Assembly (NCBI GenBank): GCA_023247195.1 | Contig: JAHFGY010000008.1 | Span: 1 to 33,561 of the forward strand | Source: Candidatus Omnitrophota bacterium | GTDB taxonomy: Bacteria; Omnitrophota; Gorgyraeia; Aquiviventales; Aquiviventaceae | Reading direction: 5' to 3' | Length of the DNA stretch: 33,561 nucleotides | Shown here: positions 29,283-33,561 of the stretch, one piece after another | How positions within the stretch are numbered: the stretch's first letter is position 1 | How the letters are laid out: each line of letters opens with the position of its first letter | Position numbers and translations under genes: made by a program | The notes under the pieces: generated by a model | The model's input: the letters and a program-made list of their open reading frames with translations, nothing else | Database searches by the model: none | Told to the model about the DNA's origin: nothing

Positions 29283-29875
29283 CTCACGGCGAGCTTTACC
29301 TGGAAGCGCTCAAACGCTTCCAGGGCGCGCTGGAGCGCGTCCGGGAAAGCGGAGTGCTCAAAGAGCCAACCGCCGGGACGCTGGCTACCGCTGATAAGGT
29401 CGGCTGGCCTTCCGTGCGGACGGTTTTGCTGAAGGAAGCCGGGCTCGACGGCTTCGTGTTTTATACGAATAGCCGTAGCCGCAAGGGCCGACAGATCGCG
29501 CAGAATCCCCGAGCCGCGCTCGGTTTCTACTGGGATGCCGCCGGCGAGCAGGCGCTCATCGAAGGGCGCATTGAGCCGGTGAGCGCGGCGGAGTCCGATG
29601 CTTATTGGCGCACCCGTCCTCGGCAAAGCCAAATCGCGGCATGGGCTTCGAACCAGTCGTCTTCTTTGAAAAACCGCGAGGAGCTGCTGGCAAAAGTCGA
29701 GAGCATGACGGAAAAATTTGAAGGCAAGGTTGTGCCGCGCCCGCCGCATTGGCATGGCTATCGCCTGGTGCCGGATCGGATCGAGTTCTGGACAGCCAAA
29801 CCCCATCGCCTTCATGACCGCCTCGCTTACACCTACCACGCGGGGCGCTGGACTAAAACGTTTCTCTATCCCTGA
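29264..29875 (+). CDS. pdxH: pyridoxamine/pyridoxine 5'-phosphate oxidase
   Basis: 203 residues from the TTG at 29264, the only plausible start; AGGG/CAGG lies upstream within the WG gene. FMN-dependent oxidation of PNP or PMP to pyridoxal 5'-phosphate, the last step of vitamin B6 salvage. Motifs: EPTAGTLATADKVGWPSVRT, VFYTNSRSRKGRQIAQNPRA (FMN phosphate contacts), RIEPVSAAESDAYWRTRPR, ASNQSSSLKNREEL, PPHWHGYRLVPDRIEFW, and the terminal RLHDRLAYTYHAGRW...LYP, all standard for PdxH. It converges with the trmB-like gene and overlaps it by 10 bases. Confidence 0.94.
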   Translation: MEAHGVTHGELYLEALKRFQGALERVRESGVLKEPTAGTLATADKVGWPSVRTVLLKEAGLDGFVFYTNSRSRKGRQIAQNPRAALGFYWDAAGEQALIEGRIEPVSAAESDAYWRTRPRQSQIAAWASNQSSSLKNREELLAKVESMTEKFEGKVVPRPPHWHGYRLVPDRIEFWTAKPHRLHDRLAYTYHAGRWTKTFLYP

Positions 29876-30801
29876 GTCGACGCGGTTGCCGCGGCATACA
29901 CCTGATCCAGCGCTTGCTGGACGCCGCGGGTTGGCACCATGCGGCATCCCCAGGCCGGCCGGATGTGCCAAGATTGCTCGACGCGCGCGATATCGATCCA
30001 AAAATCCTGCATGAGCGGCTCCTCGACCACCATCACCCGCACCATGGCCCGTTCACGCTTCGGGTCGTATAAATAGTCTTTGAATTCAATGGCGCAGGGC
30101 ATGCGCGCATTTTCAGGTTGGAACCGCTCCGGATCGAATCGGTCAATGTGGTGAGTGTTCAATTCACTATCCTCCTCTAAAGGGATGGCCCAGTTGTTTT
30201 CCTTAATTAGACGCAGCTCATGAAAAGCTTCTTGCCCTTGCGCGTGCCAGCGTCGCGCATAGAGCGTTTTTAAATTAGCCTCCGCCGGAAGGGCCGCGTC
30301 CTCCAATCGAAAGCCCGTGTCCAGGTGTTGCTCGGCGATCCAGTTCCGATAAGCTGAGGAATCCGTTACGATGCGCGCTTGCGCTCCTGGCATGAGCCGG
30401 CTGTTCAATAACCGCAAAAACGGGGCGGCGAACAAGCGGTGGCGCAGGTGAGGTGTTTTCGGCCAGGGGCAGGGAAACAAGGCGTAGGCATGCGCAAGGC
30501 TTTCCGGGCGGAAGCAACGCTGCAGGACCACGCGCGTGTCGCCGTAGAGGACGCGGATATTCGGCGGTCCGCCGGCTGCGATGCGCCGCAGCACGCGCAA
30601 AACCGCTGTCCAGGCTTGGTCAATCGCCACGATGTTCTGGTTCGGGTGCTCCCGGGCATACTCAAGCAGGTATTCGCCGTTCCCGCAGCCAATCTCAAAG
30701 GCAAGCGGCTGCTGGCGGCCAAAGGCCTGGCCCCAGTCGATCGGGCGGCCTACGGCTTGCCACTGGATAAGTGGATAGAGGGAGCGGTAGCGTCCTTTCA
30801 T
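29866..30801 (-). CDS. trmB: TrmB-like (tRNA guanine-N7) methyltransferase, divergent, with C-terminal extension
   Basis: 311 residues, about 70 longer than E. coli TrmB. The SAM-binding motif FEIGCGNGEYLLEYAREHP, AIDQAW and the family block LFPCPWPKTPHLRHRL are recognisable, as is VTDSSAYRNWI in place of the usual TDxxxY. Two conserved family positions differ: the catalytic Asp of PDPWPK is Cys111, and the Glu of the usual TxYE motif is Ala (TLYARRW). Residues about 210-311 are an extra beta-rich domain (IEFKDYLYDPKRERAMVRVM, EQSWHIRPAWGCRMVP) not found in standard TrmB. Either a lineage-specific m7G46 methyltransferase or a paralogue with changed activity. Confidence 0.8.
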   Translation of the reverse strand: MKGRYRSLYPLIQWQAVGRPIDWGQAFGRQQPLAFEIGCGNGEYLLEYAREHPNQNIVAIDQAWTAVLRVLRRIAAGGPPNIRVLYGDTRVVLQRCFRPESLAHAYALFPCPWPKTPHLRHRLFAAPFLRLLNSRLMPGAQARIVTDSSAYRNWIAEQHLDTGFRLEDAALPAEANLKTLYARRWHAQGQEAFHELRLIKENNWAIPLEEDSELNTHHIDRFDPERFQPENARMPCAIEFKDYLYDPKRERAMVRVMVVEEPLMQDFWIDIARVEQSWHIRPAWGCRMVPTRGVQQALDQVYAAATASTQG

Positions 30802-30815
30802 GCCTGCAAATATTA

Positions 30816-30844
30816 TGTATACAGCGTCTTGACAGCAGAGTCGA
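30816..30844 (-). promoter_or_regulatory. putative promoter of the trmB-like gene
   Basis: On the minus strand TCGACT (30844-30839), 17-base spacer, TATACA (30821-30816), then 14 bases to the ATG. A second AT-rich box TAATAT (30815-30810) is 8 bases from the ATG. It overlaps the divergent strong promoter at 30829-30858, so the two may compete. Confidence 0.3.
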
Positions 30845-30858
30845 TGATCGGGTATAGT
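30829..30858 (+). promoter_or_regulatory. strong sigma-70 promoter of the riboswitch-pilus operon
   Basis: -35 TTGACA (30829-30834), 18-base spacer, -10 TATAGT (30853-30858). Start expected near 30865, giving a leader of about 250 bases before the ATG at 31115. A weaker second set, TTGTAG (30864-30869) and TTTAGT (30887-30892) with 17-base spacing, follows. Confidence 0.7.
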
Positions 30859-30910
30859 TTTTATTGTAGTTGCTTTTTATAAACAATTTAGTAAGTTTAA
30901 GTTCAACCCG

Positions 30911-31017
30911 AAAAGGCACACCCACTGTAAGGTGGGGTCGGGCGCGAAACCCGCGCCACTTGGGTGAAATGCCCAAGCGCAAAGCCACGGGTCCCTTCCA
31001 GGGATAGCCGGGCTGCC
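30911..31017 (+). ncRNA. cyclic-di-GMP-I (GEMM)-like riboswitch aptamer, atypical
   Basis: The 5' part has AAGGCACACC followed by a 6-bp stem capped with a GUAA (GNRA) tetraloop (30921-30936), like P1b of GEMM. The 3' part has CGCAAAGCCACGGGTC (30978-30993), a short stem, then AGCCGGGCTGCCG (31006-31018), the most recognisable GEMM block. Between them lie about 40 extra bases with two hairpins (GGCGCG/CGCGCC at 30941-30957 and CTTGGG/CCCAAG at 30959-30977), where the standard aptamer runs directly from GG to ACGCAAAGCC. So it is GEMM-like with an insertion, or a related but different class. Position upstream of pilus genes is typical for GEMM. Identity rests on motif recognition only. Confidence 0.55.
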
Positions 31018-31041
31018 GAAGAGGCAGCCCGGCTTTATTTT
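31006..31041 (+). terminator. intrinsic terminator overlapping the riboswitch 3' strand
   Basis: Perfect 12-bp stem AGCCGGGCTGCC (31006-31017) / GGCAGCCCGGCT (31023-31034) with loop GAAGA, followed by TTATTTT. The 5' arm is the same AGCCGGG strand the aptamer needs, so aptamer and terminator exclude each other. Ligand binding would therefore prevent termination, an ON switch. Confidence 0.85.
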
Positions 31042-31065
31042 GCAAGCGCTTGCGGAAGCGCTTGC
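31042..31065 (+). repeat. perfect 10-bp hairpin made of twin palindromes after the terminator
   Basis: GCAAGCGCTT-GCGG-AAGCGCTTGC: a perfect 10-bp inverted repeat directly after the terminator U-tract. It also contains AAGCGCTT, itself palindromic, twice (31044-31051 and 31056-31063), 12 bases apart centre to centre. It could be a tandem operator on DNA or an mRNA stability hairpin protecting the pilin message. No U-tract follows. Confidence 0.6.
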
Positions 31066-31114
31066 GTTACAAGGGGAAAGGGAGTAAATTGTGGCTTTGC
31101 AACAGGAGGCGGGT

Positions 31115-31729
31115 ATGAAGGTACGCATCGCGATTTTGAGCTTGAGTCTCGCGGCGTTTAGCGCGCCGTTAATCGCGCAGGCGGCTACGGTCACCAGCGG
31201 TCCGGTTCAGGTAAGCGCGAGCGTCAATGCGCTGCAGCAGTTCAACTGCACGATTTTGCAGCACAACACGCCCACGGACGCGGGTACGCTTGTGACGACG
31301 ATGAACTTCGGGCAGTTGGCACGACCGGTTGATGCGACAGGCACGCCGTTGGCATTGGCCTCGACATCGTTCTTCCAGGTGTCTTGCGCGATCAACACGT
31401 CAGGCAAGGGCTACACGCTGACGCAGACCGGTACGGCTCTGACCGCCGGCACGGCCACGCTTCCTGCCGGTGCTTACGTTTTCACCCCCCTGAACATCAC
31501 CACGGGCCCGGGCGCTTACCCCGCGGGTGGCACGGTTTCCGCGCGTGGTTCCGCGGTCCGCACCGCAGCTGGTTGGTACGCACACCCGACCGGCGCTGCC
31601 GGCGTGATTCAGGCTACCTACGGCATCACCAATGACGCTGCCAACGGTGCTACGCAGTTCATCGCCCCCGATCAGGCGGCCGGTGCGTACACTGGTCAGG
31701 TGACTTGGACGTTGACCATCAACCCGTAA
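31115..31729 (+). CDS. secreted pilin-like subunit, spore-coat-U/CsuA-like
   Basis: 204 residues from the ATG at 31115 with ideal Shine-Dalgarno AGGAGG (31104-31109); the GTG at 31091 lies upstream of that site. Signal peptide MKVRIAILSLSLAAFSAPLIAQA. The mature part is Ala/Gly/Thr-rich and all-beta, with FNCTI, then MNFGQLARP, FFQVSCAIN and GYTLTQTG, and ends GAYTGQVTWTLTINP. A Cys, an FG strand, a second Cys and a terminal G-Y-x-G-x-V-x-WTL strand match the layout of spore-coat-protein-U/CsuA-type subunits of archaic chaperone-usher pili. The next two genes encode a chaperone and an outer-membrane protein. It is probably the major fibre subunit, switched by the leader riboswitch. Confidence 0.72.
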   Translation: MKVRIAILSLSLAAFSAPLIAQAATVTSGPVQVSASVNALQQFNCTILQHNTPTDAGTLVTTMNFGQLARPVDATGTPLALASTSFFQVSCAINTSGKGYTLTQTGTALTAGTATLPAGAYVFTPLNITTGPGAYPAGGTVSARGSAVRTAAGWYAHPTGAAGVIQATYGITNDAANGATQFIAPDQAAGAYTGQVTWTLTINP

Positions 31730-31744
31730 GGGTAAAAATACTGA

Positions 31745-32572
31745 ATGAGTCGCGGTCTGGCAAGTAAACGACTCATCGCGATCGTGGGCCTGGCCTCCAG
31801 CCTGTTGCTGGGGGCCAGGCCTGTTTTTGCCATTAACCTGAGCGCTAGCCAGCCGGTTGTGCGCGAGACCTTGAAGCCCGGCGCGGCGATTCAAGGCAGC
31901 ATTGAGTTGACCAATTCCGGCCAGGAGCCGGTGCAAGTGAAGCTGTATTTGGAAGATTGGCGATACACCGAAGCGGGCGATGGGAACAAAGACTTCGGTC
32001 CGCCCGGAACCTTTCCGCGATCCGCGGCTGATTGGATCCGGTTTCGCCCCCAGCAGGTGGAAATAGCACCCGGCAAGACGGCGATCGTTGATTACACGAT
32101 TACGGTTCCTCAAGACACAACGCTCGACGGCGGCTATTATGCGGTTCTCTTCTTCGAATCCATGATCGCCGATCCCACGCAGGCCGACCAGGATTCCGTT
32201 GCCGTGAAGTACGCGGCTCGGCTCGGGAGCCTTTTTCTGGTAGAAATTGATAACACCGTTCGACGAGAGGCGACCCTGAAGGATGTTCAAGTGACCGCTG
32301 CCGCGGCAACGCCGCTGCGGATACAGGGCAGCCTGTCGAATGAAGGCAACGTGTCTCTGAAATGCTCAGGCACCTTCCATGTGATGAGCGCTCAGGGAAT
32401 GGTAACCGCGCGAGGCGAACTGCCGCTCCGCTACGTTTGGCCAGGCAATCAAGTGCCCTTTGAGGCTGAATGGCCCGGAAAGTTGGCATCCGGGGCCTAT
32501 TCCACGGTTGCTACCTACGATTGCGGAGACGACCTCGTGCTTGTTGAGGAGGTAGCGGCGTCCGTGCCGTGA
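31745..32572 (+). CDS. periplasmic PapD-like pilus chaperone
   Basis: 275 residues with signal peptide (about 1-29, LIAIVGLASSLLLGARPVFA). The first Ig-like domain has ASQPVVRETLKPGAAIQGSI, LTNSGQEPVQVKLYLEDWRY, and WIRFRPQQVEIAPGKTAIVDY, the pattern of FimC/PapD and related chaperone domains, in which a Gly/Lys-containing F-G turn follows. YAVLFFESM completes the domain. The second domain (about 170-270) is beta-rich with LSNEGNVSLKCSGTFHVMSA and a Cys pair (KC, YDCGDD). Such chaperones complete pilin folds by donor-strand complementation. It lies 15 bases after the pilin gene, and its stop overlaps the next start (TGATG), indicating coupled translation. Confidence 0.75.
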   Translation: MSRGLASKRLIAIVGLASSLLLGARPVFAINLSASQPVVRETLKPGAAIQGSIELTNSGQEPVQVKLYLEDWRYTEAGDGNKDFGPPGTFPRSAADWIRFRPQQVEIAPGKTAIVDYTITVPQDTTLDGGYYAVLFFESMIADPTQADQDSVAVKYAARLGSLFLVEIDNTVRREATLKDVQVTAAAATPLRIQGSLSNEGNVSLKCSGTFHVMSAQGMVTARGELPLRYVWPGNQVPFEAEWPGKLASGAYSTVATYDCGDDLVLVEEVAASVP

Positions 32573-33561
32573 TGGCACGCGGACGCTCGTGCCTCGCTCT
32601 TCTGTTTGCGGCAGCTTGGATGCTCGTTCAGGCTGCTGCAGCCTCCGCTCAAACCCCTGCTTCGCCTCCAGGCGCCGCTCCTCGATCGCTCGAACTTATC
32701 GTCGGAGAGCCCGCGGACGTCAGTTTCGGCTCGGTTGAACGATTCCTCGTCGGCGATCCCGCCGTGCTCGATGCCGAGCAGTTGAATCCGTCGACGCTCC
32801 GTCTTACCCCTCTGGCCCCCGGAAAAACATTTGTCCTTGTGTGGGGCCCCGAAGGCCGCCGCACATCCGTCGTGCGCGTCATGCCCTTTCGGTTGGGCCC
32901 GATCTTGCCTGAGCCGGCGGTTGAGGAGGCTGTTAAGCATGCGCGGGCTCTAAAGGTCGGTTACACGTTTGATTACGAGACGGATCGAAGAGGCTCAACC
33001 TTTCGCGACACGCGCCTGGATACCACCAACCGGTTCAATCAACAGCTGAACACGGACATGGAAACGCCGTACGGTGATTTTACGTCCCAGTTCCAGATGC
33101 AGCGCGTCAACAGCGTCGAGGATCTCACTTTCTGGCAAACGCGTCTTGCCCACGGCCATTTAGGCCCTGTGGATGACTTCGACGCGATCGCAGGAGATTC
33201 CTACATTCCCTTTGCCCGCGGGTTCGCGGTTCCGTCCGTGGGCTATCGAGGCGCGACCCTGAGGCTCGATGACTTGGGCCCGTTTCATGCTGCCGGGCTC
33301 TGGGGGCGTGAGCGGTCATCCATCTACAGCTTGTCGAGCCAGGGCGGGTTTGGGGTGAAGCGGGACTCGTTTGTTTCCGGACTCAACGTCGGCTATGAAG
33401 ACCCGGCGAATCCTTGGCAGGTCGAAGCGTCCACGCTTTTCGGCCAAGGAGACGAGCGCCAGGCCAACACCAGCGACGAAATGGTCGATCTCAGCAGCGC
33501 TTATCGCGTGACGGAAGTTTGGTCGCTCAAGCAGGAGCTCGCGATGAGCGATGAAAGCTTT
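32572..33561 (+). CDS. outer-membrane barrel protein with pilus-formation N-terminal domain, 3' end outside the window
   Basis: Open from the ATG at 32572 to the window end (330 codons, no stop). Signal peptide (MARGRSCLALLFAAAWMLVQ, then AAAASAQ). Residues about 40-105 (ELIVGEPADVSFGSVERFLV, GDPAVLDAEQLNPSTLRLTP, GKTFVLVWGPEGRRTSVVRV) match the pilus-formation N-terminal domain of secretin-type proteins (T2SS-T3SS_pil_N), including the GDP-x-V and G-x-T-x-L-x-VW patterns. From about residue 125 on, amphipathic strands of a barrel begin (LKVGYTFDYETDR, SQFQMQRVNS, GLNVGYEDPANPWQVEAST). No FimD-usher N-domain or plug is seen. By position it should export or anchor the fibre subunit. Confidence 0.72.
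   Translation, partial: MARGRSCLALLFAAAWMLVQAAAASAQTPASPPGAAPRSLELIVGEPADVSFGSVERFLVGDPAVLDAEQLNPSTLRLTPLAPGKTFVLVWGPEGRRTSVVRVMPFRLGPILPEPAVEEAVKHARALKVGYTFDYETDRRGSTFRDTRLDTTNRFNQQLNTDMETPYGDFTSQFQMQRVNSVEDLTFWQTRLAHGHLGPVDDFDAIAGDSYIPFARGFAVPSVGYRGATLRLDDLGPFHAAGLWGRERSSIYSLSSQGGFGVKRDSFVSGLNVGYEDPANPWQVEASTLFGQGDERQANTSDEMVDLSSAYRVTEVWSLKQELAMSDESF

Follow-up and report, generated by a model that had tools for sequence, protein, structure and literature searches.

Based on the analysis reported here, we suggest that the contig end of an Omnitrophota genome probably carries a surface-fibre operon of the chaperone-usher type, belonging to a lineage peculiar to the Omnitrophota and near relatives and placed under a riboswitch for cyclic di-GMP (c-di-GMP) of the c-di-GMP-I (GEMM-I) class. 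The window, i.e. the whole stretch of 33,561 nucleotides that was analysed, is the entire contig G000:C34 of a metagenome-assembled genome (assembly of 2.16 Mb), which named relatives assign to Candidatus Omnitrophota. At its 3' end, a promoter, an aptamer and an intrinsic terminator precede three packed genes for a pilin-like protein, a PapD-like chaperone and an outer-membrane barrel.

Results

The operon is real, and the first-pass annotation described its outline correctly as a strong promoter followed by three coupled genes. The sigma-70-type promoter, TTGACA-18-TATAGT (30829-30858, + strand), agrees with the consensus at 11 of 12 positions. 3' of the terminator, open reading frames (ORFs) on the + strand that all begin with ATG encode a pilin-like secreted subunit of 204 amino acids (31115-31729), a periplasmic chaperone of the PapD/EcpB/WxLIP fold of 275 amino acids (31745-32572) and an usher-like outer-membrane barrel (32572-33561), the latter two overlapping as TGATG. 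The barrel gene is cut at the contig end, and a search of its own assembly to extend it 3' did not find the remainder elsewhere; the sole match, an NHL-repeat/SdrD-like protein on contig C233, is unrelated.

The GEMM-like aptamer proposed earlier is recognized by RF01051 at 30905-31020 (+) with 37.7 bits (gathering score 35, E 4.7e-4). Because this margin is small, a second covariance model, R1, was trained independently on 22 other GEMMs, taken from this genome and from Omnitrophota relatives with the window excluded; R1 scores the window aptamer at 45.1 bits (E 2e-11), and its 22 copies display two-sided changes in 17 of 20 pairs. The core GGCA...CGCAAAGCC...AGCC is retained and P2 is capped by a GUAA loop of the GNRA type. 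The low Rfam score is explained by enlargement of the P2 arm (30925-30980), in which two additional hairpins stand between the capped P2 and CGCAAAGCC and adjoin the ligand junction, as read from the sequence and from a 57-nucleotide local end in the Rfam alignment. Comparably long aptamers are present in the same genome (C235:2178-2323) and elsewhere in the family.

The terminator (31006-31034, +) has a perfect 12-bp stem and a GAAGA loop and is followed by TTATTTT. Its 5' arm, AGCCGGGCTGCC, includes the 3' strand of aptamer P3, the shared stretch being AGCCGGGC. Thus, aptamer and terminator are mutually exclusive, as had been claimed. In folding calculations, leader RNAs ending at 31017-31025, in which the terminator 3' arm has not yet been made, favor aptamer pairing, and the full leader adopts the terminator fold at -75.2 kcal/mol compared with -61.9 kcal/mol with P3 forced; the folding z-score of the whole leader is -5.3. 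While the exclusion of the two folds is computed, binding of c-di-GMP by the leader is what we infer from the aptamer. The simplest reading of the leader design is that the ligand would block termination and that the operon would be ON at high c-di-GMP, because no other antiterminator is visible. Between the terminator and the pilin start, the tandem palindromes AAGCGCTTGCGGAAGCGCTTGCG (31044-31066, +; exact match, none expected in shuffles) may form an operator.

The genome contains 15 GEMMs above the cut-off and one below. By inspection, the ORFs 3' of these GEMMs include type IV pilins, pilM-Q, a Flp-type pilin, TadB/C-like proteins, a sugar transferase and others. Since they precede pilus-type genes, a surface fibre is an expected target. 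Same-strand GEMMs stand ahead of the operon in the window and in loci L032, L037, L038, L041, L042 and L129, with a weak one in L050; in seven of the first eight such aptamers, window included, the terminator 5' arm overlaps the aptamer end. In L037, two tandem GEMM-I aptamers (L037:7201-7562) precede a single pilin operon.

At the N-terminus of the window barrel, PF13629, the T2SS-T3SS pilus-formation domain, scores 39.3 bits (32680-32880, +; cut-off 23), which bears out the secretin-type domain noticed in the first pass, and 21 of 24 homologues also have it. Full-length homologues mostly have 904-1028 amino acids and consist of a signal peptide, sometimes TPR repeats, PF13629, the barrel and two or three SdrD_B domains; they do not contain the secretin domain. 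The gene does not appear to continue as an ordinary FimD usher, given that PF00577 is missing from its full-length relatives. A PF00577 usher was not found in any of the 40 related genomes searched, so there is no competing usher. A search with CooC_C gave one sub-threshold match, which was discarded. The AlphaFold2 model of the homologue from L048 (predicted local distance difference test (pLDDT) 80.8, predicted TM-score 0.52) shows a run of about 27 barrel strands and three C-terminal sandwiches. In Foldseek, the top 12 PDB matches of this barrel model are all FimD/PapC (E 3.8e-18 to 2.7e-11), with scores that are inflated for long all-beta proteins and in part may be driven by the C-terminal sandwiches; the next unrelated barrels start at E 1.7e-8. 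Thus, the earlier description of a barrel where a FimD usher would be expected is right in that no usher family is recognizable, but it understates the likeness of the predicted fold. A second subtype of the barrel in the family is without PF13629 (L037:10396-13128, L041:7018-9732), and that of L041 has a weak Cu_amine_oxidN1-like domain in its place.

The chaperone is predicted to be of the PapD-like type with two immunoglobulin (Ig) domains (AlphaFold2, pLDDT 92.3). Foldseek places E. faecium WxLIP best, followed by V. cholerae RbmA, ciliary Ig-domain proteins and many chaperone-usher chaperones (YadV, CfaA, CsuC, Caf1M and FimC), which compared with WxLIP have about equal query TM-scores and higher target TM-scores. 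Moreover, the profile of the family picks EcpB as its best PDB sequence (E 0.0017), and hhalign to K-12 EcpB gives 72%, covering parts of both domains. The two share an RIG motif adjoining the donor strand, and V154/Y156/A158/L160 of the chaperone align with the EcpB donor residues A111/A113/A115/I117 (PMC4654587), with the numbering transferred from the 222-residue precursor. The PapD-like assignment of the first pass is therefore supported at the level of fold, with the correction that the modelled fold is as close to the Gram-positive WxLIP as to PapD/CsuC. A match to the NCBIfam model UpsA (17.9 bits, cut-off 130) was discarded as chance.

The first gene product has a signal-peptide-like start, an alternating-hydrophobic N-terminus (VQVSASV) and the C-terminal AYTGQVTWTLTINP, and by these two strands it looks like a pilin. 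The CsuA/spore-coat-U assignment was not upheld: PF00419 and PF05229 (CsuA/spore coat U) do not match, and the sole family signal is weak DUF4402 matches in 4 of 20 relatives. Pilin profiles searched against PDB sequences gave chance matches only, and comparison with EcpA by hhalign was negative. Adjoining the operon in some loci are proteins of 445-503 amino acids that look like several pilin-like domains in tandem (L033:4895-7750, L028:7114-8535, L036:4866-7711); those checked have no Pfam family, and they could be tip or stalk subunits.

Of the 237 genomes sampled from the phylum, 91 contain chaperone homologues (E <= 1e-6), and a homologue was also found on one contig labelled Acidobacteriota (L073). 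On GTDB contigs, the window chaperone used alone as the query detected no close relatives, and an alignment query did detect relatives. The order pilin-chaperone-barrel is retained in most loci with long enough contigs, in several with a same-strand GEMM ahead. The three-gene set, whose combination had been called unusual, is common in the phylum.

In relatives a second GEMM, which the window does not reach and the first pass could not see, lies past the barrel on the opposite strand (tail-to-tail). A complete barrel followed by 1.5 kb or more of sequence is available in 40 loci, and 32 of these have the convergent GEMM at a distance of 256-874 nucleotides (e.g. L066:12701-13484, L058, L119, L109 and about 30 others), while we estimate from the observed GEMM densities that chance would account for fewer than one case in 40. 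This site is thus the commoner riboswitch position. Of 31 convergent GEMMs for which a terminator was found, 30 have it apart from the aptamer.

The gene behind the convergent GEMM usually encodes a secreted protein of 80-115 amino acids with a signal peptide, a strand like DSVTISMSCTIPAIPGVNAP and an acidic or Gln-rich tail, often ending in (Y/F)SR. This strand is similar to the N-terminus of the mature pilins in those loci (ADTKTINLTATIPSSSS), and by sequence the protein resembles a bare pilin donor strand that lacks the body. A strict regular expression matched 7 of 20 pilins, 20 of 30 small proteins and 7 of 130 other signal-peptide ORFs, a weak test in which some of the small proteins had been chosen using a related pattern; the likeness therefore rests mainly on alignments. 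L028 differs in having a full pilin-like gene in place of the small one. In some loci (L069:5720-5989, L058:12854-13093 and L066:12984-13286, all on the - strand), a small cytoplasmic ORF (RVVTFLNREEVDFLDKLGKDALFS.GLKLSRAKIISWLIDF) lies between the convergent GEMM and the small secreted gene; by eye it is ribbon-helix-helix-like, and it has no Pfam family.

Outside the operon, a trmB-like methyltransferase gene (29866-30801, -; PF02390) precedes the promoter and is divergent from it.

Discussion

Our verdict is that the system probably belongs with the chaperone-usher pathways and has a pore that is usher-like but unorthodox, even though several of the features by which members of this class are recognized are absent. 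The following findings weigh against this assignment. All 24 barrel homologues are without PF00577, hhalign of the barrel against EcpC gives only 1.4%, the L048 model has no Ig-like plug (the longest gap between strands is about 18 residues), and its TM-scores to ushers are low (target TM-score 0.30-0.39; 0.49 for the barrel alone), for which reason we use the label usher-like and not usher. The window barrel itself is incomplete. In the chaperone, the carboxylate anchor Arg89 in strand F1, which is conserved in and characterizes the non-classical (archaic/alternative) chaperones (PMC4654587), is replaced by Ala133 (YYR of EcpB aligns with YYA133), and the Pfam PapD_N model does not match it. 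Finally, the window aptamer combines an atypical P2 arm with little margin above the gathering score, and the pilin gene of the closest relative examined (G012/L028) is not directly preceded by a riboswitch.

The low TM-scores, the missing plug, the count of about 27 rather than 24 strands and the negative comparison with EcpC would all suit a generic large outer-membrane porin or exporter that has replaced the usher and resembles FimD only by virtue of a barrel with beta-sandwich tails. We consider this unlikely, because the position of the barrel after the chaperone is fixed across the phylum and the best ushers lie ten orders of magnitude below the next barrels in Foldseek E-value. It is rather more doubtful that the products form a secreted surface coat or matrix instead of a pilus, with the second protein stabilizing the first as WxLIP does WxL and the barrel exporting or anchoring it without ordered polymerization. 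For this speak the WxLIP structures at the top of the chaperone list, weak WxLIP_PGBD matches in 7 of 23 members of the chaperone family and the WxL-like end of the window pilin (VTWTL...P); however, none of 20 pilins matches the WxL family, the chaperone model has no C-terminal transmembrane helix, the target TM-scores are in favor of the chaperone-usher chaperones and the barrel fold is nearest to ushers. Least plausible is a degenerate GEMM that has lost switching, with expression either constitutive or governed by the AAGCGCTT palindromes, since the expanded P2 arm, the modest Rfam margin and the palindromes downstream are offset by the intact core and GUAA loop, the R1 score and a terminator geometry that matches operon-leading GEMMs in other genera (L032, L037, L038, L041, L042).

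Among known systems, the alternative chaperone-usher pathway (E. coli common pilus EcpABCDE; CS1/CFA-I) shares with the window the order of pilin, chaperone and usher, the hydrophobic G1 donor strand, the RIG motif and the chaperone closest in sequence, EcpB. By contrast, the window system is without PF00577/CooC_C, Arg89 and a visible plug, and barrels of its type add PF13629 at the N-terminus and SdrD_B repeats at the C-terminus. Archaic chaperone-usher pili (Csu, CupE) have a similar chaperone fold (CsuC, target TM-score 0.50-0.55) and presumably a pilin C-terminal strand comparable to the GxYxGxVTxTL of the window family, but their pilins belong to PF05229 and the usher here is unrecognizable by sequence. 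Gram-positive WxL-WxLIP clusters are alike in the two-Ig-domain partner and, in this genome, in a small beta subunit with a WxL-like end; they differ in the WxL family itself, in the membrane helix and in that an outer-membrane barrel is present here. With the secretins of Type II/III and Tad systems (CpaC/RcpA), the PF13629 domain is held in common, whereas here it precedes a large single-chain barrel and no secretin domain. Compared with c-di-GMP-I riboswitches upstream of pilin and other surface genes, the aptamer family, the terminator platform and the kind of target are the same; the window differs by the extra P2 hairpins and its relatives by the second, convergent copy, and a target operon of this type was not found in the literature searched.

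In the model that we favor, the terminator would form at low c-di-GMP and transcription would halt, while bound c-di-GMP would retain the aptamer 3' strand, prevent terminator formation and allow transcription of the operon. The pilin would be exported to the periplasm, where the two-Ig-domain chaperone would complete it by donating its G1 strand. The PF13629-barrel-SdrD_B protein would serve as the usher, its N-terminal domain receiving chaperone-pilin complexes, and the growing fibre would thread through the barrel with subunits linked by donor-strand exchange.

The second GEMM leads to a wider and much more tentative proposal, of which we are doubtful ourselves, i.e. that the fibre system extends throughout the phylum, with an usher unrelated in sequence and a pair of differently built c-di-GMP-I riboswitches. 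The ON type would precede the pilin operon in this family, and the convergent one would control a small secreted donor strand without an Ig body that caps, terminates or anchors the fibre under c-di-GMP. Such a strand could occupy the groove of the last subunit and accept no further subunit. The paired riboswitches have different terminator layouts and make it clearly testable whether c-di-GMP controls assembly and its stop in an opposite or a combined manner.

Bacteria of the Omnitrophota are ultra-small and uncultured, and host-dependent traits have been predicted for them (PMC10066038); the main text of that study does not mention ushers or riboswitches, and literature searches on either in Omnitrophota/Omnitrophica returned nothing relevant.

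Most knowledge of chaperone-usher pili comes from Proteobacteria. If our reading is true, a distant version in the Omnitrophota would widen the known range of this machine and show how other domains can make up an outer-membrane pore. Moreover, the equal likeness of the chaperone to PapD-type chaperones and to WxLIP would make a common origin of both strand-donating systems directly testable.

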